Source: Marinifilum sp. D737 (GTDB lineage: Bacteria; Bacteroidota; Bacteroidia; Bacteroidales; Marinifilaceae). From it: a stretch of DNA of 64,000 nucleotides. Below the pieces are notes generated by a model. The model saw only the letters and a list, made by a program, of their open reading frames with translations, searched no databases and was not told the origin of the DNA. The stretch is taken from assembly GCF_026672275.1 (NCBI RefSeq), contig NZ_JANQCD010000008.1, forward strand, positions 62,001 through 126,000, given 5' to 3'. Positions 4,522 through 47,522 of the stretch are shown here, piece by piece; position 1 is the first letter of the stretch, and the number at the start of each line of letters is the position of its first letter. The translations under genes and the position numbers were made by a program.

Positions 4522-5502
4522 TTACTTTATGCCACCTAAAATTTTGTCCATTACCCATGCGGTATGGCTGGCTGACTTTCCGGTAGATGGATGATTCATT
4601 TTTCCAAGCAGGTGTTCCCTCATATTTTGTACATGGTAAAGTTGAATGTTTTCAGGATTCTCGATGAATTCTTCTTGAATACCCTTTTCATTTTCCAATA
4701 GAATAGCGAGCTCATCGAAAACCGAAAATGTCAATTTTCCTTTGCTTCCATATATTTCAACCTTATCTTCTCGTGTGTTACAGCCAAAATTCCAGCTTCC
4801 ACTACCTGTAATTCCATTTTTGTGTATCCAACAAGCAGCAATGGCATCTTTGGCAGGATAAAGTTTTTGTTGATTTGTTGCAATTCCTGACGCATTTTCA
4901 ATATCACCAAGCAAATAAGTGAACAGGTCCAGGCCATGACTAGCCAAATCGTCGAAATATCCCCCGGGTGCAATTTGATTATTGGTGCGCCAGTTGTATT
5001 CTCCCGATAGATCCAATGGGTTTGGTGCTTTGCTCAAATGCCAGCTAATGTGTCTTATTTCACCAATAGAATTGTTGTTGATCAGTTGTTTTACTTTATT
5101 AAATCGTGGAAGAGAACGTCGGTAATAAGCTACAAAAAGAGGTAAATTCTTTTCTTCGAAAGCATTTGTAATTTCAATACAATCGGAGTAGGATGGAGCC
5201 ATTGGCTTTTCGATGCAACAAATCTTTCCGGCTTCAGCAACTTTTAAAGCATATTCTTTGTGAGAATCTGGAGGAGTGGCAATGTAAATCGCATCAATAT
5301 CATTGTCATGAATTATTTCATTGGCATTTGTAGTGTACTTTAAGATATTATGTCTTTGTGCATAGCTGTGCAATAAATTTTCATTGCGGCGCATTACGGC
5401 TAAAAGTTCAAATCCTATGGTTTTCTGATAAGCTGGTCCGCTTTTGATTTCAGTAACTTTTCCACAACCAATAATTCCCCAACCTATGATTTTATCTGAC
5501 AT
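4522..5502 (-). CDS. Gfo/Idh/MocA family oxidoreductase
   Basis: This 326-residue cytosolic NAD(P)-dependent dehydrogenase acts on sugars, inositol-like polyols or related metabolites. The Rossmann nucleotide loop GIIGCGKV is at residues 9-16, and the catalytic-site EKP signature is at 98-100. The C-terminal half forms the alpha/beta substrate domain, with a GGYFDDLASHGLDLF segment carrying the conserved histidine. Length is normal. It is transcribed alone, convergent with pepF. The substrate cannot be determined from the sequence. Confidence 0.9.
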   Translation of the reverse strand: MSDKIIGWGIIGCGKVTEIKSGPAYQKTIGFELLAVMRRNENLLHSYAQRHNILKYTTNANEIIHDNDIDAIYIATPPDSHKEYALKVAEAGKICCIEKPMAPSYSDCIEITNAFEEKNLPLFVAYYRRSLPRFNKVKQLINNNSIGEIRHISWHLSKAPNPLDLSGEYNWRTNNQIAPGGYFDDLASHGLDLFTYLLGDIENASGIATNQQKLYPAKDAIAACWIHKNGITGSGSWNFGCNTREDKVEIYGSKGKLTFSVFDELAILLENEKGIQEEFIENPENIQLYHVQNMREHLLGKMNHPSTGKSASHTAWVMDKILGGIK

Positions 5503-5570
5503 ATCTTACTTTTTAATCTCACGAAGATAAATGTTTTTTGGATATTGAAGAGTATAGGGATTATACTAAA

Positions 5571-5601
5571 ACAGCACCGGTTCAAAACGAACCGATGCTG
5601 T
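5571..5601 (-). terminator. Hairpin terminator downstream of the RND operon
   Basis: ACAGCACCGGTTC and GAACCGATGCTGT form a 13-bp stem with one mismatch and a five-base loop. On the minus strand it is followed by TTTT, which suits termination of the leftward efflux operon. Confidence 0.6.
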
Positions 5602-5639
5602 AGTTGATATGCTAAATGAAAGGTAAATACGATAAAAGT

Positions 5640-5778
5640 GTGACCAGGTCATTTGATTGAAGAACCACCTTCAACTACAATACCCACTATAACCCAAGTC
5701 CAACTATAAATATCTTCACAGTTAAACCCTTTAAAAAGTCCTATATTTATAGCTGAACTTGGGTTTTGACCTGGTCAC
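5640..5778. repeat. Nested inverted-repeat foldback at the 3' end of the RND operon
   Basis: An exact 12-bp outer pair GTGACCAGGTCA (5640-5651) / TGACCTGGTCAC (5767-5778) encloses a 23-bp inner pair at 5691-5713 and 5743-5765 with only two mismatches. The whole element could fold into one long hairpin. It starts 11 bases after the stop of the outer-membrane factor gene. It carries no gene and could be a MITE-like element or a transcript-end structure. Confidence 0.8.
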
Positions 5779-5789
5779 TTCATCCCACT

Positions 5790-7211
5790 TTATTCTTTAT
5801 TCCAACCTCCGCCTAAAGCTTTGTATAGCTCAACGATGGCATTTAGTTGTTTAAATTTTGAATCAATCATGTTAATTTCAGAAGAAAGAGCATTACTTCT
5901 GGCAGTAAGAACTTCCAGGTAAGTTGTATTTTGGTATGCATTGTTTAGCAACTCTTCCGAGTAACTTACTGCTTCTGTCAATGCTTGTAACTCTTGTTTT
6001 CTGATTTCATATTTGTTTTGCTCACTCTCATAGCTGTATAGTGCATCAGAAACCTCTTTGCTGGCAGTTAATACTGATTTTTTGAAATTGTGCCTGGCTT
6101 CTGCTTGCTGTGCCTTGGCAACTTCATGTTGTGTTCTAACTCGTCTTTTGTTGAACAAAGGTTGAGTTAGGTTTCCAACAATATTGCTGAAGATTGCTCC
6201 TGAATCAAACCAATCATCAAAATTCATGCTTTCTAATCCAGCAGTAGCACTAACGCTAATGGTAGGATAGAAGTTGCTTCTAGCCACATTCGTAAGTTCA
6301 AAGGCATTCATCAAACCATATTCAGCTAGCATCACGTCAGGACGGTTTCTTAGCAATTGAACAGGAAAACCTGTGTTCAACTCAATTTTGATGTCTTGGT
6401 TTGTAAGTTTACCTCTTTCAATCATATTAGGATTGCGTCCCAATAAAAGTGAAATTGTATTCTCAAGAAGACTCACATTTTGTTTTAAATCCAAAAGCAA
6501 AATCTGAGTACTGTACAATTGTGCTTCAGTTTGCTTTACTGCAGCTTCGGTAACCTGTCCGGCATCTTTTAAGCTCTTCATGGTCTCCAGACTTTCCTTT
6601 CTGGTTGTAACGGTTCTTTCAGCTACTTCAACCTGAGCATCCAATGCTAACAGTTGGTAGTATGCAGATGCCGTATTGGCTATCAAAGAACTTTCAACTG
6701 CTCTTTTCGAAGCTTCACTCTGTAAAAATGAAGCTTGAGCCGCTCTTTTATTACTTCTGATTTTACCCCAAATATCAGCTTCCCACGAGATGGTTCCATT
6801 CAATTGGTAATTCTCGTAGTTTGGTCCATTTCCACCAGCAGCTACTCCTGATTGGCTATTATCTGACAATTCATAGTTTCCGCCATTCGCACTTAGATTC
6901 AAGCTAGGCAAGTAACCCATTTTTCCTTGCTTGTAATATGCTTCTGCGGCATTTACACGCTCCACAGCCATTTGCAGATCAAGATTTGAATCCAGAACCT
7001 CATTGATGAGCTTCTTTAGCTGCTTATCGGTAAACAATTCTTCCCATGGCATATTGGCTAATGTGGCCGAATCAGTTGTTGATACATTTCTGTATTGATC
7101 CTGAATTTCGATATCAGGTTGTTGGTATTTTTTAGCTACAAAGCAAGACTGCAGGCTTGTTGTAGCAAAAGCTAAAAATACCACTCCATATATAATTTTC
7201 TTTGTTCTCAT
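5790..7211 (-). CDS. RND efflux outer-membrane factor lipoprotein (NodT/OprM type)
   Basis: This 473-residue TolC-like channel is the outer-membrane exit of the tripartite pump. A lipobox with cysteine at residue 23 (SLQSC) marks a lipoprotein. The body has two OEP repeats with long alpha-helical hairpins and the family end KALGGGW. It is the last gene of the operon, 14 bases after the pump gene, and is followed by a foldback and a hairpin terminator. It should trimerise and dock with the adaptor encoded upstream. Confidence 0.93.
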   Translation of the reverse strand: MRTKKIIYGVVFLAFATTSLQSCFVAKKYQQPDIEIQDQYRNVSTTDSATLANMPWEELFTDKQLKKLINEVLDSNLDLQMAVERVNAAEAYYKQGKMGYLPSLNLSANGGNYELSDNSQSGVAAGGNGPNYENYQLNGTISWEADIWGKIRSNKRAAQASFLQSEASKRAVESSLIANTASAYYQLLALDAQVEVAERTVTTRKESLETMKSLKDAGQVTEAAVKQTEAQLYSTQILLLDLKQNVSLLENTISLLLGRNPNMIERGKLTNQDIKIELNTGFPVQLLRNRPDVMLAEYGLMNAFELTNVARSNFYPTISVSATAGLESMNFDDWFDSGAIFSNIVGNLTQPLFNKRRVRTQHEVAKAQQAEARHNFKKSVLTASKEVSDALYSYESEQNKYEIRKQELQALTEAVSYSEELLNNAYQNTTYLEVLTARSNALSSEINMIDSKFKQLNAIVELYKALGGGWNKE

Positions 7212-7225
7212 TGATCGTATTCTAA

Positions 7226-10200
7226 TTATTGAACCTTAGACAGTTCTTCTACTTCAATTTCTTCCAATTCCTCTTCTTTTGGAGCTCCGCTAATTTTCTC
7301 TTGAATCATTTGGAAAATCACAAAGAAGGCAGGAATTACAAATACTCCAAAGACAGTTCCTATCAACATACCACCAACGGCTCCTGTACCAATGGAACGG
7401 TTCCCCACAGCTCCGGCACCACTTGCCAGCATCAATGGCATCAAACCAAGAATAAAGGCAAAGGATGTCATCAGGATCGGACGCAAACGTGCTTTTGCAC
7501 CTTCAGCAGCAGCTTGCAATATTTCCATTCCCTGTCTGCGACGTTGAAGAGCGAACTCTACAATCAGAATGGCATTCTTCGCTAACAGACCAATCAACAT
7601 GATTAAGGCAACCTGGAAATAAATGTTGTTTTCCAGACCAATGAGCTTTACAAAGAATATGGCTCCAAAAATCCCGATAGGGAGTGACAATAGAATTGAG
7701 AATGGAAGAATATAACTTTCGTACTGCGCAGCAAGAAGGAAATAGACAAATATCAAACTCAATACAAAAACAACCACTGCCTGGTTCCCTGCTTTTTCTT
7801 CCTCGCGGGTCATTCCTGAGAACTCATATCCATAAGTTGAAGGAAGTGTTTGTGCTGCTACCTCGCGAATGGCTTGAATCGCATCACCAGTACTGTATCC
7901 CGGGTTTACGTTTCCGTTAATGGTTGCTGAGTTAAACAGGTTGAATCGATTCACCACATCGGGACCATTCACTTTTTTCATGTTGACAAACTGGCTCACT
8001 GATACCAACTCATTGTTTGCATTACGAACAAATACATTGTCCATCGATTCAATGGTTTCCCTATCCTCAGGAGAAGCTTGAAGCATCACGCGATATTGCT
8101 TACCAAATCTATTGAAATCGGCAGCATACCAGCTTCCGTAGTATCCCTGAAGGGTTGAAAATAGTCCGTTAACAGAAATACCAGCCTCTTTTACCTTTTC
8201 AACATTCACTTCCATTTCGTACTGAGGGAAACCTGTGTTGAAAGAAGTAATGGCGTATTTAATTTCTGGTCGTTGATTTAGTGCGCCCAGGAATTGTCCG
8301 CTTTTTGCCATTAAGTCGTCAAAAGATCCATTTGATTTATCCTGTAGTCTCATCTCAAAACCATCGGAGTTACCAAAACCACGAACGGTAGGAGGGGCAA
8401 AGAATAGAATTCTGGCTTCATTGATTCCTGCAGTACGACCAAACAATTGTCCAATAATTGCATTTACCTTCTGGTGATCTTCTTTTCGCTCATGCCAATC
8501 TTTAAGCTTGATTACGGCAAAAGCCTTCGATCCACCATTTGTTCCACTCATCAAACTAAATCCAATCACGAACATGCGTTCCTGTACAACGTCAATCTCC
8601 TCAATAATGCTTTCTACCTTTCCGGCAACCTCAGTAGTTCTGTCAAGGGTACTTCCCGGAGGCAAAGTGATATCACAGAAGATGATTCCCTGGTCTTCAT
8701 TTGGAATAAATCCTGTTGGAGTCGTTTTAAAGAACCATCCTGCCAATAGGGTAAAGCCAATAAGTATTGCTCCCGCTAACCATTTTTTGTTGATAAGGAA
8801 TTTTACAGATTTGGTATACCTGTCGGTGATTGCATCAAAACCTGTATTGAAAGACGTATAGAATCTATTCATCAATCCTTTTTTGTGATCTTCACTTGGA
8901 TTATGAGGTTTCAAAAGCAAGGCACAAAGAGCAGGACTCAATGTTAATGCGTTGATTGCTGAAATAACAATGGCTACTGCCAAGGTGATTGCAAATTGCT
9001 GATAAAAAGCACCAGTTGGACCTTTCAAAAAGGAAACCGGGATAAATACAGCAGACATCACAAGGGTGATAGAGATAATCGCACCCGTGATTTCATTCAT
9101 TGCAGACACTGTAGCTTTCTTGGCACTTTTTGCTCCATTGTCTAATTTGGCATGAACCGCTTCTACAACCACAATGGCATCATCAACTACAATACCAATG
9201 GCCAAAACCAGGGCAAACAAAGTCAACATGTTAATCGAGAATCCAAATAGATTCAGGAAAAAGAAGGTGCCGACAATCGCCACCGGAACAGCAATTGCTG
9301 GAATCAAGGTTGATCTAAAGTCCTGTAGGAAAAGGAATACCACAAGGAATACCAAAAGGAATGCCTCAATAAGGGTTGAAATTACCTTTGAAATAGAGGC
9401 CTCAAGAAAGTCGTTGGTATTAAAAGGAATCACATATCCAATTCCCTTAGGAAAATCGACACTAGCCTTTTCCAGGGTACGTTCCACTTCCTTGATAATT
9501 TCCTGAGCATTGGAACCTGAGGTTTGGTATACCGCGATGGCAACAGATGGATTTCCATTTGTAATGTTCTTTGTTGCATAGCTAAATGCTCCTAGTTCCA
9601 CTTTTGCTACATCTTTCAATCTTAGAAAGTCGCTGTTTCCTTCAGAGCGAAGAATAATGTTTTCATACTCCTCTTGAGTAGAAAGTTTCCCTTTGTAGCG
9701 AATTACATATTCGAATGACTGGCTTGAGTTTGCTCCAAATTTACCGGGAGCAGCTTCAAGGTTTTGTTCGTTTAAAGCAGCTACAACATCCTGAGGTGTT
9801 AAACCATAGGCAGCCATTTTTTCAGGTTTCAACCAGATTCTCATAGAGTAATCTCGTGATCCAAAAACATTGGCATCACCAACCCCGTTAATCCTTTTAA
9901 CCATCGGGATTAGGTTGATACGAGCATAGTTTTCAATAAAGGTGGCATCAAAGTCATCATTCTCTGAGAATAGAGACAAGAACATCAATACACTAGTCTG
10001 AACCTTTTTGGTGGTTACACCGGATTGAATTACCTGCTGTGGCAGTTTACTATTTACAGTTGCTACACGATTTTGCACGTTCACCGCTGCAATATCAGGG
10101 TTGGTTCCCAATTCAAAGTATACGCTAATGGTTGCGGTTCCGTCATTACTTGAGGTTGAAGACATGTAGGTCATGTTTTCAACACCATTTACTGCCTCTT

Positions 10201-10396
10201 CAATGGGAACAACAACACTTTTTAGCAGTGTTTCAGCATTTGCCCCAGGGTAGGTTGCAGAGATTTGCACGGTTGGAGGTGCAATTTCCGGGAACTGCTC
10301 TCTTGGCAGGGATGTAAGTCCCAAAACCCCTAAAATTAGGATGAGTATGGATATTACGGTCGATAAAACCGGCCGTTCAATAAATCTTCTTAACAT
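7226..10396 (-). CDS. RND efflux pump permease, HAE1/AcrB family
   Basis: This 1056-residue inner-membrane proton/drug antiporter opens with MLRRFIERPVLSTVISILI, the usual first transmembrane helix. The proton-relay aspartate pair lies in the fourth helix (AIGIVVDDAIVVVEA). The late membrane segment has GLLAKNAILIVEFA and the conserved GxxLRPILMTS region. Twelve transmembrane helices and two large periplasmic loops are expected from the length and pattern. It lies 35 bases after the adaptor and 14 bases before the outer-membrane factor. The substrates are probably amphiphilic toxins or drugs, but which ones is unknown. Confidence 0.95.
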   Translation of the reverse strand: MLRRFIERPVLSTVISILILILGVLGLTSLPREQFPEIAPPTVQISATYPGANAETLLKSVVVPIEEAVNGVENMTYMSSTSSNDGTATISVYFELGTNPDIAAVNVQNRVATVNSKLPQQVIQSGVTTKKVQTSVLMFLSLFSENDDFDATFIENYARINLIPMVKRINGVGDANVFGSRDYSMRIWLKPEKMAAYGLTPQDVVAALNEQNLEAAPGKFGANSSQSFEYVIRYKGKLSTQEEYENIILRSEGNSDFLRLKDVAKVELGAFSYATKNITNGNPSVAIAVYQTSGSNAQEIIKEVERTLEKASVDFPKGIGYVIPFNTNDFLEASISKVISTLIEAFLLVFLVVFLFLQDFRSTLIPAIAVPVAIVGTFFFLNLFGFSINMLTLFALVLAIGIVVDDAIVVVEAVHAKLDNGAKSAKKATVSAMNEITGAIISITLVMSAVFIPVSFLKGPTGAFYQQFAITLAVAIVISAINALTLSPALCALLLKPHNPSEDHKKGLMNRFYTSFNTGFDAITDRYTKSVKFLINKKWLAGAILIGFTLLAGWFFKTTPTGFIPNEDQGIIFCDITLPPGSTLDRTTEVAGKVESIIEEIDVVQERMFVIGFSLMSGTNGGSKAFAVIKLKDWHERKEDHQKVNAIIGQLFGRTAGINEARILFFAPPTVRGFGNSDGFEMRLQDKSNGSFDDLMAKSGQFLGALNQRPEIKYAITSFNTGFPQYEMEVNVEKVKEAGISVNGLFSTLQGYYGSWYAADFNRFGKQYRVMLQASPEDRETIESMDNVFVRNANNELVSVSQFVNMKKVNGPDVVNRFNLFNSATINGNVNPGYSTGDAIQAIREVAAQTLPSTYGYEFSGMTREEEKAGNQAVVVFVLSLIFVYFLLAAQYESYILPFSILLSLPIGIFGAIFFVKLIGLENNIYFQVALIMLIGLLAKNAILIVEFALQRRRQGMEILQAAAEGAKARLRPILMTSFAFILGLMPLMLASGAGAVGNRSIGTGAVGGMLIGTVFGVFVIPAFFVIFQMIQEKISGAPKEEELEEIEVEELSKVQ

Positions 10397-10431
10397 GATT
10401 TTTGTTTAATTTTTAAAACTGAAAGAACTGC

Positions 10432-11589
10432 TTACTTTTGAGAAAAGGCAACATTACCATCTGCTTTCGATTGCCCGCTTTGAGGGATGATCTGCATACC
10501 ATCGCGAAGTTTAATCAAGCCATCAACAACATATTGCTGCCCTGGATTTACTCCACCTTTCACAATAAAATGGTTGTCCACAGTACTGGCGATGATTACC
10601 TCTTTCGATTCTACTTTGTTTTCTTTTCCTACCAGGTAAACGAATTTTTTTCCTTGTAATTCGTAAGTAGCCTTTTGCGGCAGTAAAACAATGTCGTTCA
10701 TATCAGATGGCATTTTCACTTTTCCGCTAATACCACTTCTTAGAAGATTATTAGGATTAGGGAAGATGGCTCTGTAGCTGATACTTCCTGTTCTAGGATT
10801 TACCATGCCATTAATGGTTTCAATTTTCCCTTTGAACTCGTACAATGAACCATCGGCTAGTACAAGCTCAACTTCAGGCATTTTCTTGATTTTCTCATTT
10901 GCAGTATTACCATTTAATTGACGATTAAATTGTAATAATTGCTTTTCATTCAATGTGAAATAGGCATGTACATTTTTAATGTTTGAAACTGTGGTTAAAG
11001 GTTTTGCTTCAGTACGTCCAACCAAACTTCCTACTTTGTAAGGTAAGCTACCAACAATCCCTTCTACAGGACTTTTAATCATTGTATATTCAAGGTTCTC
11101 TCTGGTATTTTGATATTGAGCTTCTGCGGCAGCTAACTGTGCTTTTGCAGCATTCAAGTTACTTGTGGCTGTTTTAAGCTGAATTGAGCTAATGATGTTT
11201 TTTTCAACGAGAGGAGTAATTTTGTCAACTTCCACCTGTGCTGAAAATACTTGAGCTTCGGCTACCTTAATATTTGCCTTAGCAGCTTTAACTTGCTGGC
11301 TTAAGGTTTCTGCGCTAAGTTTAAAAAGCAATTGACCTTTTGTTACCTGATCACCTTCGTCAATATATATTTCATCGATAAATCCATCTACTTTAGGTCG
11401 AATTTCGATATTTTGTACCCCCTCAATATTGGCTGCGTATTCAGTATATGTTGTCACATCTGATTTCTCTGCAGTTTTAACAGGAAAAGGCATTGGGCCA
11501 TGTCCCGCTTGAGGTTGATTTCCTTTTTTGCATGACGTAAATCCTAGTAGGAGGATTATAATACCAGCGAATAAATAATTTTTTTTCAT
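10432..11589 (-). CDS. RND efflux periplasmic adaptor (AcrA/MexA type)
   Basis: This 385-residue membrane-fusion protein links the pump to the outer-membrane factor. The lipobox cysteine is at residue 20 (LGFTSC). Biotinyl-lipoyl half-motifs flank an alpha-hairpin: one around residue 65-100 with IYIDEGDQVTKGQLLF, the other near TMIKSPVEGIVGSLPYKVGS. Beta-barrel and membrane-proximal domains follow. The 158-base upstream spacer holds two operator-like palindromes that match one in front of the regulator gene, so the operon is likely repressed by that regulator. Confidence 0.95.
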   Translation of the reverse strand: MKKNYLFAGIIILLLGFTSCKKGNQPQAGHGPMPFPVKTAEKSDVTTYTEYAANIEGVQNIEIRPKVDGFIDEIYIDEGDQVTKGQLLFKLSAETLSQQVKAAKANIKVAEAQVFSAQVEVDKITPLVEKNIISSIQLKTATSNLNAAKAQLAAAEAQYQNTRENLEYTMIKSPVEGIVGSLPYKVGSLVGRTEAKPLTTVSNIKNVHAYFTLNEKQLLQFNRQLNGNTANEKIKKMPEVELVLADGSLYEFKGKIETINGMVNPRTGSISYRAIFPNPNNLLRSGISGKVKMPSDMNDIVLLPQKATYELQGKKFVYLVGKENKVESKEVIIASTVDNHFIVKGGVNPGQQYVVDGLIKLRDGMQIIPQSGQSKADGNVAFSQK

Positions 11590-25694: not shown

Positions 25695-26621
25695 ATGTCA
25701 GCTAAGAAGAAAATAAGAGTTGCAACTCGCCCAAGTTTGCTTGCTTATACTCAAACAATGCAAACTGTTGAATTGTTGCAGAAAGCCAATCCTGATGTTG
25801 AATTTGAGGTAATTAAATTTAGCACGCAAGGTGATAGAGTTTTGAACCGATCGTTAACAGAATTTGGAAGCACAGGTTTGTTTGTAAAAGAATTGGAACA
25901 TGCGCTTCTGGAAGGTGAGGCTGATATTGCCGTTCATAGTTTAAAGGATGTCCCAAGCTTTCATCCTGACGGATTAAAATTGGTTGCTTTTCCTGAGCGT
26001 GAAGATGTGCGCGATGTATTCTTAAGTCGCGACGGAAGTACAATTGATCAAATGCCTGAAGGTTTTGTTTTGGGAACGGGAAGTCCTCGAAGAAGAGTTC
26101 AATTGGCAGATTTGAGACCTGATACCAACTTTAAAGAGATCAGAGGGAATATCGATACCAGAATGCAAAAGTTAATGGATGGCGAGTATGATGCCATTAT
26201 TCTTGCTGCTGCAGGTATGAATCGATTGGGGAAGGAATTTCAGGAGAAATTACTTTTAGATGTCGATCAGTGTATTCCAGCAATTGGTCAAGGAGCAATT
26301 GCCATTGAATGTAGAGACAATGATGAGGAAACCATTGCCGTTGTAGAAAAGGTAAATCATGAACCTACCAAGTATGCAATTTTAGCGGAACGTGCTTTTA
26401 TGGCAGAAATTGAAGGAGGTTGCAAATTTCCATTGGCAGCACATGCTGTGGTGAGCGAGGATCATTTGACAATGATTGCGATTGTTGGCGATTTAAAGAC
26501 CAATCAGTTCATTGTTGAGCAAATAGAAGTTGCAGTAGAAGATTCTGTTGAGAAGTCGACAAAATTGGCGCAACAAATGAAAGATACTTGTAAGGCAAAA
26601 GGAATAAATTTTTATCTTTAG
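25695..26621 (+). CDS. hemC: Hydroxymethylbilane synthase (porphobilinogen deaminase)
   Basis: This 308-residue cytosolic enzyme condenses four porphobilinogen units into hydroxymethylbilane. Conserved motifs are VHSLKDVP, LGTGSPRR, RGNIDTR and the dipyrromethane-cofactor cysteine in EGGCKFPLAAHA. The length is standard. It lies 60 bases before hemB. Confidence 0.96.
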   Translation: MSAKKKIRVATRPSLLAYTQTMQTVELLQKANPDVEFEVIKFSTQGDRVLNRSLTEFGSTGLFVKELEHALLEGEADIAVHSLKDVPSFHPDGLKLVAFPEREDVRDVFLSRDGSTIDQMPEGFVLGTGSPRRRVQLADLRPDTNFKEIRGNIDTRMQKLMDGEYDAIILAAAGMNRLGKEFQEKLLLDVDQCIPAIGQGAIAIECRDNDEETIAVVEKVNHEPTKYAILAERAFMAEIEGGCKFPLAAHAVVSEDHLTMIAIVGDLKTNQFIVEQIEVAVEDSVEKSTKLAQQMKDTCKAKGINFYL

Positions 26622-43858: not shown

Positions 43859-43887
43859 AAAGGCCTTCCAAACGGAAGGCCTTTTTT
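43859..43887 (+). terminator. Rho-independent terminator of icd
   Basis: AAAGGCCTTCC and GGAAGGCCTTT form a perfect 11-base stem with loop AAAC, followed by T residues, 23 bases after the stop. Confidence 0.93.
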
Positions 43888-43904: not shown

Positions 43905-43936
43905 AAAAGAAAAAAGGCAGAAAATAAATTTCTGCC
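43905..43936 (-). terminator. Rho-independent terminator of the cbiK transcript
   Basis: On the minus strand GGCAGAAA / TTTCTGCC form an eight-base stem with a five-base loop, followed by TTTTTT, 36 bases after the chelatase stop. Confidence 0.85.
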
Positions 43937-43971: not shown

Positions 43972-44910
43972 TTACTCAGCATCTTCAAGGTGATCCATCC
44001 AGATTTTGTTGATCTCGTTGTAATCGCCTAAACCTTTCATTACAGTATGAACCGTATAACCTTTTCCTTCCAATCTTTCTTTCCACGATTGTTCTGCAGG
44101 ATCAGTTTCACCAGTGTTACCATTCATATCGTTATTTGCATGATCACCAGCAATAGACATTAATGGAGTAATGGTAACTTTGGTAGCTTTTGGAGAAAGT
44201 TTATCCAATTCGGCAAGAATACCGCCTATTGAAGTTGTTCCTGCATCGAAACCAATCCCTTCTACAGTACCTACAAAAAAGTTAGGATTTAGTTTTTGTA
44301 GCTCGCTCTGAAGTTTTAAGTATTGAGCATCTGCAGCATGTGGAGTACCGTGTCCCATTAACAATACAGGACCATCTTTTAATTCCTCAGAGAATTTTAC
44401 AGCTAAAATATCAGCAACAGCTTTAATGTCAGCATCGCTATCCAATAAAGGGCGACCAATTTTCACGCTTACTCCTTCGTATTTTTCTTTGAAGGCATGG
44501 ATTGCTTCTTTTAATTCATCAAATTCTTCACCAGGAATAACATGTAAAGATTGTACTTCGAATTTAGAAAAACCATCTTTTACCATGATTTCCAAAGCTT
44601 CCTGTGGCGTGTCATTGTCGATAATTTGTCCTTTTAAAGAACCTTCTCCATTTCCCTGACGCAATTTGTTGATAATGATGTCGGAGGTGTAACCCCATTT
44701 AATGGTTTCACCGGCAAATCGTTTTTTAGCAGCATCATCGATGTTCTTGAATGTCTCTTGTGGGTCTGGGAATGAAGATCCAAAAGTTACCAATAGGATA
44801 CCTTCTTTGTCACCTAAAGTGTTCTTGTCATCATTGTCGTCATCACTACATGCAGTGAATACCATTGCTAATGCGCATAAAGCGATAGCTGATTTTTTGA
44901 TTAAATTCAT
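43972..44910 (-). CDS. cbiK: CbiK-type sirohydrochlorin cobaltochelatase, exported lipoprotein
   Basis: This 312-residue protein has the CbiK/class II chelatase fold: start LLVTFGSSFPDPQETF, then metal-site histidines H123 (SLHVIPGEEF), H187 (LLMGHGTPHA) and H257 (SIAGDHANND). Cytosolic CbiK (~260 aa) inserts cobalt into sirohydrochlorin. Here a 20-residue signal with lipobox FTAC (C21) and an acidic SDDD tract predict a lipoprotein outside the inner membrane, perhaps surface-exposed. It lies 58 bases after a TonB-dependent receptor under a cobalamin riboswitch. A role in binding or metallating external tetrapyrroles is inferred, not known. Confidence 0.9.
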   Translation of the reverse strand: MNLIKKSAIALCALAMVFTACSDDDNDDKNTLGDKEGILLVTFGSSFPDPQETFKNIDDAAKKRFAGETIKWGYTSDIIINKLRQGNGEGSLKGQIIDNDTPQEALEIMVKDGFSKFEVQSLHVIPGEEFDELKEAIHAFKEKYEGVSVKIGRPLLDSDADIKAVADILAVKFSEELKDGPVLLMGHGTPHAADAQYLKLQSELQKLNPNFFVGTVEGIGFDAGTTSIGGILAELDKLSPKATKVTITPLMSIAGDHANNDMNGNTGETDPAEQSWKERLEGKGYTVHTVMKGLGDYNEINKIWMDHLEDAE

Positions 44911-44968
44911 TTTGCCTTGTGTTTTTGTTAATTTGATTTTATTGATAAATCCCCAAAGGGATTTTAGC

Positions 44969-47224
44969 TTATTTGCTAAAGTTTACATTCAACCCTACAA
45001 AGAGTGTTCTTCCCGGATTTAAGGTTCCGTAATGTGAACCATATGGTCTGTCATCTACATAATCGAACAGGTTGTCGATTCCTGCAGTGATCCAAATTTT
45101 GTAGTTCTCCAATTTGTTAATGCTTAGGTTCGAAGAGAGTTTCCAAACTTGGTATGCATCTGCATAGCTTCTCTCCAAATCTTCTTCTAAATAGAAACGA
45201 TCTGATTTGTAAACGCCAGATAGATTGATGTTTAGTTTCTTCTTATTCCATCTTTCTGTCCAAGATAATTTCCAGGTGGCGCTATGTTCTGATATGCCAT
45301 TTAACCTGATATCCTGACTTAGGTTCTTTGCATTTACATAGCTGTAACTACCATTGAATAATAGTTGAGAAAATACAGGAAAACTAAAGTGCCAATCAGC
45401 ACCAATGGTTCTTGCATCGTCTATATTGTATCTTTTTTTGGTTTCCTCAATCCCTCTTCGTGAATGATCATATGTTGTTGGAATGATTTTATAATCAATT
45501 TTGTCGTAGATTCTATTCAGGTATATATTTAGGCCCGTTTTAAACTTGTTGGCCTTAAATTCACTTGATAATGAAAAGTAATGTGATTTCTGAGCTTTCA
45601 AGTCTTCATTACCAAGATATAGGCGATACATGCCCATGCGGTTGCTTTCGTAGTAATAGTACAATTCTTTTAAAGTAGGACTTTTAAAGCCATTAGAGTA
45701 GGTAAATCTATGGGTGAATTTAGATTCTTTGTACATCATGCTTAGTTTTGGCGTTGCCGAAAATCCGGTTTTATCGTGATACAAGGTTCTAAGACCTGCA
45801 ACCAAATCTAATTTTTTACTTAGCTTCATTTCATCCTGAACATACAAGGAGTAAGTGTAGGCATTAACTTTAGGTGTGGTTAACCTGTATTCCGCTTCAA
45901 GGTATTCGCCTCTAAGCTCAGTTCCAAAGCTTAGTTTGTTCTTGTCGTTGATGTTAAAAACTCCTTTTACCTGCGAAATTACGTTTACTACATCCGAATT
46001 TTTAAATCGATCACCCGGATAATAGGTCTTCTTAATTACATCGGTACTGGTAATATAGCTTTCGTTGTATTTGTAGGGATATTCCGTGTAGTACAAGTAG
46101 TTGTTTACATCAAAATTGAAACTCAGTAGATTATTTTTTTTCAATTTGTAGATGCCAGCAAGTGAAACCGCCCTGTTATTGTAATAGTAATTGTGCATTT
46201 GCGCCTTGAATGGAAAATACAGTATTTTTTCGTACCAGGACAAATCCATATTTAAACTTAACTTTTGGTTTACCTCATACTCTAAAAACTGGCTAATGGT
46301 ATAAGCTTTACTTTTATTTACAGGTTTGTAGTAGGTATGAACCAAAAATGGTAAATCGTGATTGGATTCCCACTTGTTATTAAATTTCATGGAATTCAAT
46401 TGGTAACCTGCTTTTTGTTTGTAGTTGAAAGTAGTTTTGCCAGATAGTTTCCCTTCACTAAAAGTGAAAGAGTTCAGCTGTTTAAAATCTCCGTAAGCAC
46501 CCAGGCGGGAACTACTGCTTGCAGATCGTTTTCCTTTTACTTTTTTGGTGATGATATTGATTACTCCGGCTATGGCATCGGATCCGTATAGGGTAGAGGA
46601 AGCTCCTTTTACTACTTCTATTTGCTCAATGTCTGCTGAGTTGATTCTGTTTAAATCAGCATATCCACCAACACCGCCAGTTAATCTTTTGCCATTCAAA
46701 AGGATCAATACATAGTCTTTGCCCAAACCATTAATTTTGATATTGGAACCCATAGAGCTGGTTGTATAATCAATGGAAGAGGAGATGCCCGATATGATTT
46801 CTTCTACATTTCTGCCGGAAATGTCAGCTATGTCCTTTTTGGTAATGATTTCGGTTTGAACTGGTACATTATCAATCTTGTAATGCGTACCTGTGCCCGT
46901 AACAACGATAGGGGAAATGGTAAAAGATTTTGGCTGTAGTCCAATATCGAACTTTTTGGAAGCCTTTAAATCAATTTCCTGGCAGAACTTCTCGTATCCA
47001 AGAACCGAAACACAAAGATGATACTTGCCTTTTGTTAGCTTGCTTAAGGTATACTGTCCACCATTTTGTGTACTTGCTGTATTTAAACTGTCGAGGTAAA
47101 CGTAAGCAAAATCAATTCCCTCCCTGGTGTTTTTGTTGTACACCTTGCCACTAAGGCTAAAATTTTGTGAGAATGCAGAAAAAAATACTACCTGCATTAA
47201 CAACATACAAAAAATCTTATGCAT
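44969..47224 (-). CDS. TonB-dependent outer-membrane receptor, BtuB-like by riboswitch context
   Basis: This 751-residue protein has a signal peptide (about 1-19) and a carboxypeptidase-regulatory-like domain (about 22-100). The plug domain contains IVVTGTGTHYKIDNVPVQTE, GKDYVLILLNGKRLTGGVGG and VEVVKGASSTLYGSDAIAGV. A 22-strand-type beta-barrel ends in LFVGLNVNFSK. It imports a ligand using TonB energy. A cobalamin riboswitch begins about 110 bases upstream and an exported chelatase follows, so corrinoids or precursors are the probable cargo. Confidence 0.92.
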   Translation of the reverse strand: MHKIFCMLLMQVVFFSAFSQNFSLSGKVYNKNTREGIDFAYVYLDSLNTASTQNGGQYTLSKLTKGKYHLCVSVLGYEKFCQEIDLKASKKFDIGLQPKSFTISPIVVTGTGTHYKIDNVPVQTEIITKKDIADISGRNVEEIISGISSSIDYTTSSMGSNIKINGLGKDYVLILLNGKRLTGGVGGYADLNRINSADIEQIEVVKGASSTLYGSDAIAGVINIITKKVKGKRSASSSSRLGAYGDFKQLNSFTFSEGKLSGKTTFNYKQKAGYQLNSMKFNNKWESNHDLPFLVHTYYKPVNKSKAYTISQFLEYEVNQKLSLNMDLSWYEKILYFPFKAQMHNYYYNNRAVSLAGIYKLKKNNLLSFNFDVNNYLYYTEYPYKYNESYITSTDVIKKTYYPGDRFKNSDVVNVISQVKGVFNINDKNKLSFGTELRGEYLEAEYRLTTPKVNAYTYSLYVQDEMKLSKKLDLVAGLRTLYHDKTGFSATPKLSMMYKESKFTHRFTYSNGFKSPTLKELYYYYESNRMGMYRLYLGNEDLKAQKSHYFSLSSEFKANKFKTGLNIYLNRIYDKIDYKIIPTTYDHSRRGIEETKKRYNIDDARTIGADWHFSFPVFSQLLFNGSYSYVNAKNLSQDIRLNGISEHSATWKLSWTERWNKKKLNINLSGVYKSDRFYLEEDLERSYADAYQVWKLSSNLSINKLENYKIWITAGIDNLFDYVDDRPYGSHYGTLNPGRTLFVGLNVNFSK

Positions 47225-47332
47225 AGTAAAAACATACTAATGCATTCCTGGAATATGTGAGGTGAATGAAATCAGAAAATATACCAAATCATCATTAACT
47301 TCTTTTCCCGGAAGCAATAATTAAACAATATC

Positions 47333-47522
47333 TCCTGGCAGGTTTCCTGACTTTCCCGATTCTCAACTCCTTCCCATCCCTATAGGACAGTGGATTTTGA
47401 CTGTTGAGAACGAATTAATATCCATGGATATTAACGGGATTTACAGTAGCGGGTACTGTTCCGGATTTACACCGGATTCCCTTTTAACTCTTTTTGCTGA
47501 ATGCAAACAGAGCACCAAAAGC
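47333..47522 (-). promoter_or_regulatory. Cobalamin (B12) riboswitch
   Basis: Read on the minus strand, this leader has a GGTGCTCTG start and then AAAAGGGAATCCGGTGTAAA. ACCCGCTACTGTAAATCC corresponds to the B12-box region, and the 3' end is AGTCAGGAAACCTGCC. These are the conserved blocks of the cobalamin riboswitch in the correct order. A perfect 20-base palindrome (47415-47434) forms a peripheral stem. It precedes the TonB receptor and chelatase genes, so B12 excess should reduce their expression. No internal terminator is obvious, so control may be translational. Confidence 0.93.

Follow-up and report, generated by a model that had tools for sequence, protein, structure and literature searches.

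A cobalamin riboswitch, a TonB-dependent receptor and a CbiK-family lipoprotein form an IhtA-IhtB-type unit in Marinifilum

The iht locus of Porphyromonas gingivalis (ihtABCDE) encodes a TonB-dependent receptor (TBDT), a lipoprotein and an ABC importer. A coenzyme B12 riboswitch was noted upstream of PGN_0704 in 2013, when IhtA was termed a BtuB homologue (PMC3764172), and the literature treats IhtB (FetB) as a lipoprotein that binds haem or as a chelatase (PMC10913741, PMC13402209, PMC6460266). Here we analyze a 64,000-nucleotide stretch of the Marinifilum sp. D737 genome (contig NZ_JANQCD010000008.1, positions 62,001 to 126,000; the window) in which a cobalamin riboswitch stands in front of a TBDT gene that is directly followed by a gene for a CbiK-family lipoprotein. 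This is the IhtAB/FetB-type arrangement, and the window unit is a further IhtA-IhtB(FetB)-type pair, the pairing and its riboswitch being already known. The P. gingivalis iht locus (L181) was located by 99% identity to FetB; the riboswitch ahead of its ihtA scores 74.7 bits, and the same element is present in two further Porphyromonas.

Architecture of the unit and its two proteins

The cobalamin riboswitch aptamer (RF00174; 47320-47534, minus strand) was identified by cmscan at 101.4 bits (gathering threshold 31.5, E = 3.3e-24) over the full-length model (positions 1-189) and is the sole Rfam match in the window. It also scores 146 bits with model R1, which was made in this analysis partly from this copy. 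The aptamer lies 95 nt ahead of the start codon of the TBDT gene (44969-47224, minus strand; 751 aa), which is separated by 58 nt from the lipoprotein gene on the same strand (43972-44910; 312 aa). An intrinsic terminator, GGCAGAAATTTATTTTCTGCC-TTTTTTCTTT, with an 8-bp stem and T6 closes the unit after CbiK (43916-43936, minus strand). The initial annotation had proposed a single leftward unit with a terminator, and all of its parts are confirmed here.

The lipoprotein scores 214.6 bits against PF06180 (gathering threshold 26.2; E = 2e-63) and is 39% identical to P. gingivalis FetB over 310 aa (blastp). FetB (9b86) is its closest solved relative by sequence in the PDB (phmmer E = 6.5e-57). The score against the NCBIfam cobaltochelatase equivalog NF047852 is 143.3 bits, far under the 400-bit cut-off of that model. 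An AlphaFold (AF2) model of the lipoprotein (pLDDT 87.7) was compared by VIA-align with CbiKP (2xvx; Z 34.1, 1.7 Å over 256 positions, 41% identity in the structural alignment), FetB (9b86; Z 33.7, 1.9 Å over 254) and Salmonella CbiK (1qgo; Z 29.5, 2.5 Å over 254). The Z of 34.1 to CbiKP places the model in the class II chelatase fold of PF06180. Glu129, His187 and His257 (span 44140-44526, minus strand) align with the catalytic residues Glu89, His145 and His207 of Salmonella CbiK, and all three are invariant across the 17 sequences of alignment A1, including very divergent exported copies. The haem-bridging pair of Desulfovibrio vulgaris CbiKP, reportedly His96 and His103 (Lobo 2017), is represented in the aligned window protein by Asp131 and His138, hence by a single histidine.

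The protein starts with a lipoprotein signal peptide, MNLIKKSAIALCALAMVFTAC (44848-44910, minus strand), that ends in the lipobox FTAC with Cys21; the FTAC signal is kept in the Marinifilum and G082/G186 relatives. An acidic stretch, SDDDNDDK (44824-44847, minus strand), that resembles a lipoprotein export signal (LES) follows the lipid-bearing cysteine, so that five of the eight residues after the lipobox Cys are acidic (CSDDDNDDK). Acidic residues after the lipidated cysteine are a surface-export mark in Bacteroidota that has been noted for Btu lipoproteins (PMC10404256). The mean number of acidic residues among these eight is 3.5 in 25 Bacteroidota CbiK lipoproteins versus 1.2 in six BtuF lipoproteins (p = 0.0005, with a control group that is small and comes from the same kind of loci). 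The lipobox cysteine and the acidic residues behind it predict an exported lipoprotein positioned on the cell surface; the earlier claim of an exported chelatase is thus upheld at the level of sequence.

The TBDT has plug, barrel and CarboxypepD_reg (CarbopepD_reg_2) domains in Pfam and is 35% identical to P. gingivalis IhtA over 737 aa (blastp). Its top PDB matches are CirA and FepA-type receptors, which reflect shared TBDT ancestry and are therefore uninformative on its ligand. Assignment as a canonical BtuB was rejected: the protein scores 91.7 bits against TIGR01779 (cut-off 599.7) and matches the TBDTs of a BtuB-type locus elsewhere in the genome (contig C36) weakly, with 26% identity over 151 aa to one of them.

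The unit is flanked by a convergent isocitrate dehydrogenase gene on the left and a divergent histidine kinase gene on the right. A stronger hairpin, GGCCTTCC (~43860-43885), goes with the isocitrate dehydrogenase gene and is not part of the unit. Between the TBDT and CbiK genes lies a hairpin (AAATCCC-CAAA-GGGATTT; window 44947-44964) that has no minus-strand T run and is perhaps an mRNA-stability or attenuation element. PADLOC returned no match.

Exported CbiK, riboswitches and corrin synthesis

The window CbiK was found at 84-100% identity in five of six Marinifilum genomes and not in the sixth, G200; an operon of Marinifilum sp. D714 is 90-98% identical to one in the D737 genome. The flanks of four relatives were inspected: the riboswitch-TBDT-CbiK order is complete in three, while the contig of the fourth (L157) ends inside the TBDT. 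In L034 and L035, which come from two genomes of a different family, the order is riboswitch-TBDT-CbiK (73%)-TBDT-BtuF-BtuC-BtuD, all in the same direction. The riboswitches of lipoprotein-TBDT pairs in other Bacteroidota (L034, L035, L037, L047, L062, L074, L089) all score above Rfam's cut-off. An order-wide survey with the window protein as the single query, which sets a lower bound, recovered CbiK in at least 12 of 198 genomes.

Riboswitch association was tallied as a same-strand element within 7 kb upstream, and localisation was predicted by a simple rule. Such an element precedes 80 of 92 exported CbiK genes versus 7 of 22 cytosolic ones; the Fisher p of 6e-7 is indicative, since the set was chosen by similarity to the window protein, takes in related loci and a few duplicates, and rests on that simple rule. 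The exported genes belong to Bacteroidota, Desulfobacterota, Bacillota and Synergistota, so the association, for which the initial annotation had proposed a survey, recurs widely. BtuFCD-like genes adjoin many exported CbiK genes, and corrin-ring synthesis genes accompany exported CbiK in many genomes. Cytosolic copies adjoin the CbiM cobalt transporter and hem genes in several cases, a setting that fits ordinary cobalt insertion, as expected.

HemC and CbiC were searched in 40 Bacteroidales genomes. The 15 genomes with CbiC and without HemC all yielded exported CbiK and no other form; they are ten Porphyromonas including P. gingivalis, plus G059, G093, G106, G133 and G165. Cytosolic CbiK is present in 11/11 HemC-positive Porphyromonas, two of which have the lipoprotein as well, and CbiK was not found in four genomes that lack HemC as well as CbiC. 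Marinifilum, G029, G082 and G186 are exceptions to a strict rule, with HemC present yet only exported CbiK. The corrin pathway of the HemC-negative genomes needs an imported ring, and an exported, B12-controlled chelatase of a sirohydrochlorin-substrate family fits that need. Roper et al. reportedly described the orphan corrin pathway of P. gingivalis, the "enigma" of its cobalamin synthesis, in 2000 (cited in PMC13227078). CbiC is present in P. gingivalis, and PMC6461909, citing earlier work, describes the organism as being without the steps to precorrin-2.

The CbiK tree places FetB and the window CbiK each in a supported clade, and their joint placement is weak (SH-aLRT 79). Porphyromonas cytosolic CbiK proteins (L185, L187, L189 and others) nest among surface-lipoprotein forms in this tree, which is unrooted as to direction; this suggests, from sequence, that the CbiK family changed localisation within itself. 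In one Porphyromonas species (L183), the iht-like operon is preceded by two tandem cobalamin riboswitches (5504-5702 and 6004-6252).

The D737 genome (G000) has eight cobalamin riboswitches in total. One precedes an operon on contig C33 whose first genes are for a TBDT, a PepSY membrane protein and the second CbiK of this genome, which has a cleavable signal peptide. The operon goes on with BtuF, BtuC, BtuD and a nitrilase-like protein, followed by CbiA, CbiL, CbiH-CbiC, CbiE/T-like, CbiG-CbiF, a short insert and CbiJ-CbiD. A CbiP-like gene is on C48, the sirohaem genes on C130 encode a Met8-like protein (L143, NAD_binding_7) and SUMT, and hemC is inside the window (~25713-26336). The anaerobic corrin pathway of this genome is largely complete. 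Both CbiK proteins found in it carry signal peptides and are exported; no CbiX, CobN, cytosolic CbiK or third CbiK was detected in the genome. The scan across genome contigs gave the best of the matches listed. The C36 locus has three riboswitches, a BtuB-type TBDT (E = 1e-44 to a Bacteroides thetaiotaomicron structure), a weakly BtuG-like lipoprotein and BtuFCD. This BtuB/BtuG-like pair occupies a separate riboswitch locus, and the window unit is therefore an additional system. The initial annotation had stated that no cobalamin biosynthesis genes are nearby. This is correct for corrin genes in the neighborhood, although hemC is in the window and the pathway lies on C33 and C48. The check for the pathway that it called for gives no support to the implied absence of cobalamin synthesis, and the idea of a host without it is rejected in view of the corrin genes on these two contigs.

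Other riboswitches of this genome precede different genes. On C77 (L012), one (10270-10455, minus strand) is upstream of an anaerobic ribonucleotide reductase gene (7995-10157, minus strand; NRDD, PF13597), and another (4798-4985, plus strand) is upstream of an Asp-Al_Ex (PF06826) permease gene (5449-7116, plus strand), possibly a B12-regulated transporter. A riboswitch on C22 (L014; 17159-17360, minus strand) has no clear same-strand gene downstream among the listed open reading frames. In L011, a PepSY_TM membrane protein (4800-6278) lies between the TBDT and the exported CbiK, a position conserved across Marinifilaceae and related operons; it may be a reductase for an imported tetrapyrrole.

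A candidate tetrapyrrole acquisition pair and its alternatives

We tentatively favor, at slightly less than even confidence, a reading of the unit as an IhtA-IhtB-type pair that acquires tetrapyrroles at the outer membrane under B12 repression and whose likeliest cargo is a corrinoid precursor. In this reading we infer that B12 represses the genes, and likewise the surface position, the ligand, the catalytic role and the transfer to the TBDT. Judging by the RNA family, scarce cobalamin would let the riboswitch permit expression of both genes. The CbiK-family lipoprotein, predicted from its lipobox and acidic LES to be tethered to the external face of the outer membrane, would bind a tetrapyrrole in the chelatase cleft, where the retained Glu/His/His set may insert or remove a divalent metal. 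The ring, perhaps sirohydrochlorin or cobalt-sirohydrochlorin, would be handed to the adjacent TBDT for import, by analogy with the service of BtuG to BtuB, and would join the corrin pathway of the cell, probably via the BtuFCD-like importer of the C33 riboswitch operon. A more specific proposal seems rather unlikely as a whole: that exported CbiK, TBDT and a BtuFCD-like importer metallate environmental sirohydrochlorin outside the cytoplasm, import cobalt-sirohydrochlorin and feed the corrin pathway of organisms that do not make tetrapyrroles.

Several observations weigh against a corrinoid-precursor system. Marinifilum has HemC, SUMT and corrin genes of its own and is thus without obvious need for a salvaged ring. 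The correlation between HemC and CbiK localisation is clustered on the tree, and the three independent well-supported pairs, a test without power, gave no significance. Chelatase families other than CbiK were searched in the D737 genome only. FetB is reported in a review to insert manganese into protoporphyrin IX (PMC13402209) and its PDB entry 9b86 carries a haem-binding name, which together point to porphyrins rather than sirohydrochlorin, and the haem regulator HaeR binds the iht promoter (PMC3764172). The uptake or salvage role first suggested for the chelatase gains from the comparative pattern in the CbiC-positive, HemC-negative Bacteroidales; this host itself makes tetrapyrroles.

The manganese, promoter and PDB data are equally the case for a haem or porphyrin system, along with the proposal that IhtB strips iron from haem (PMC10913741) and the rank of 9b86 as best PDB sequence match and joint top fold match. 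The lipoprotein would then bind haem or a porphyrin and remove iron or swap the metal, the TBDT would import the product, as proposed for IhtAB/FetB, and B12 control would be incidental or part of a shared tetrapyrrole economy. We regard this as improbable: cobalamin riboswitch control spans phyla, and the window protein keeps one histidine at the presumed haem-bridging places. IhtB is outside PgFur control and changes ~2-fold with iron or haem versus ~70-266-fold for hmuR in the same strain (PMC10913741), and disruption of B. fragilis cbiK left haem-iron use unaffected (unpublished data cited in PMC6460266). No better placed is recruitment of the CbiK fold as a non-catalytic surface corrinoid binder, like BtuG, BtuH, BtuJ or BtuK, from which the TBDT would receive cobinamide or whole cobamides. 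The architecture and regulation match BtuB-BtuG and the B. theta lipoproteins (PMC12751083, PMC10404256) and the adjoining BtuFCD-like genes agree with it, but the invariance of the catalytic residues in very divergent exported copies would be needless for a pure binder, C36 already supplies a canonical BtuB/BtuG-like pair, and exported CbiK keeps company with corrin-ring synthesis genes.

The cell might instead metallate its own sirohydrochlorin outside the cytoplasm and take the cobalt form back up, which would account for a corrin pathway with no cytosolic CbiK, CbiX or CobN detected and for the signal peptide on the CbiK in the C33 biosynthetic operon. We consider this very unlikely, as we know of no sirohydrochlorin exporter, the Met8-like L143 might insert cobalt in the cytosol, and a surface-anchored copy seems remote from such a need.

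Acquisition of a corrinoid precursor bears on an older question. In some anaerobes the corrin half of B12 synthesis is retained and the ring-making genes are missing, and how that half is fed has been a question since Roper et al. reportedly described the case of P. gingivalis in 2000. A surface chelatase-receptor pair under B12 control that follows the CbiC-positive, HemC-negative pattern is a concrete candidate for ring supply, and the interest of the unit lies in this comparative pattern, which renders the question testable. P. gingivalis IhtB/FetB, so far studied as a haem protein, gains a suggested tie to B12 precursors. If the salvage system is real, it would explain the P. gingivalis enigma and place FetB/IhtB in B12 rather than iron metabolism.

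Comparison with known systems

The window unit shares the riboswitch-TBDT-CbiK lipoprotein order and the catalytic residues with P. gingivalis ihtABCDE. It differs in that its terminator follows CbiK without ihtCDE-type ABC genes downstream, BtuFCD sitting in the C33 and C36 loci. Marinifilum has HemC whereas P. gingivalis does not, and the acidic LES of the window lipoprotein is stronger than that of FetB. D. vulgaris CbiKP is likewise an exported CbiK fold; it is soluble and periplasmic, we know of no TBDT partner for it, and the window protein has Asp at its presumed haem-bridging His96. A riboswitch by cbiKP is reported in O. alaskensis (PMC11124144). The cytosolic sirohydrochlorin cobaltochelatase CbiK of Salmonella has the same fold and Glu/His/His residues and differs in location and in sequence (~30% identity). 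B. theta BtuB-BtuG and related systems also combine a B12 riboswitch, a TBDT and a surface lipoprotein with an acidic LES (PMC12751083, PMC10404256), but BtuG is a β-propeller with no kinship to chelatases.

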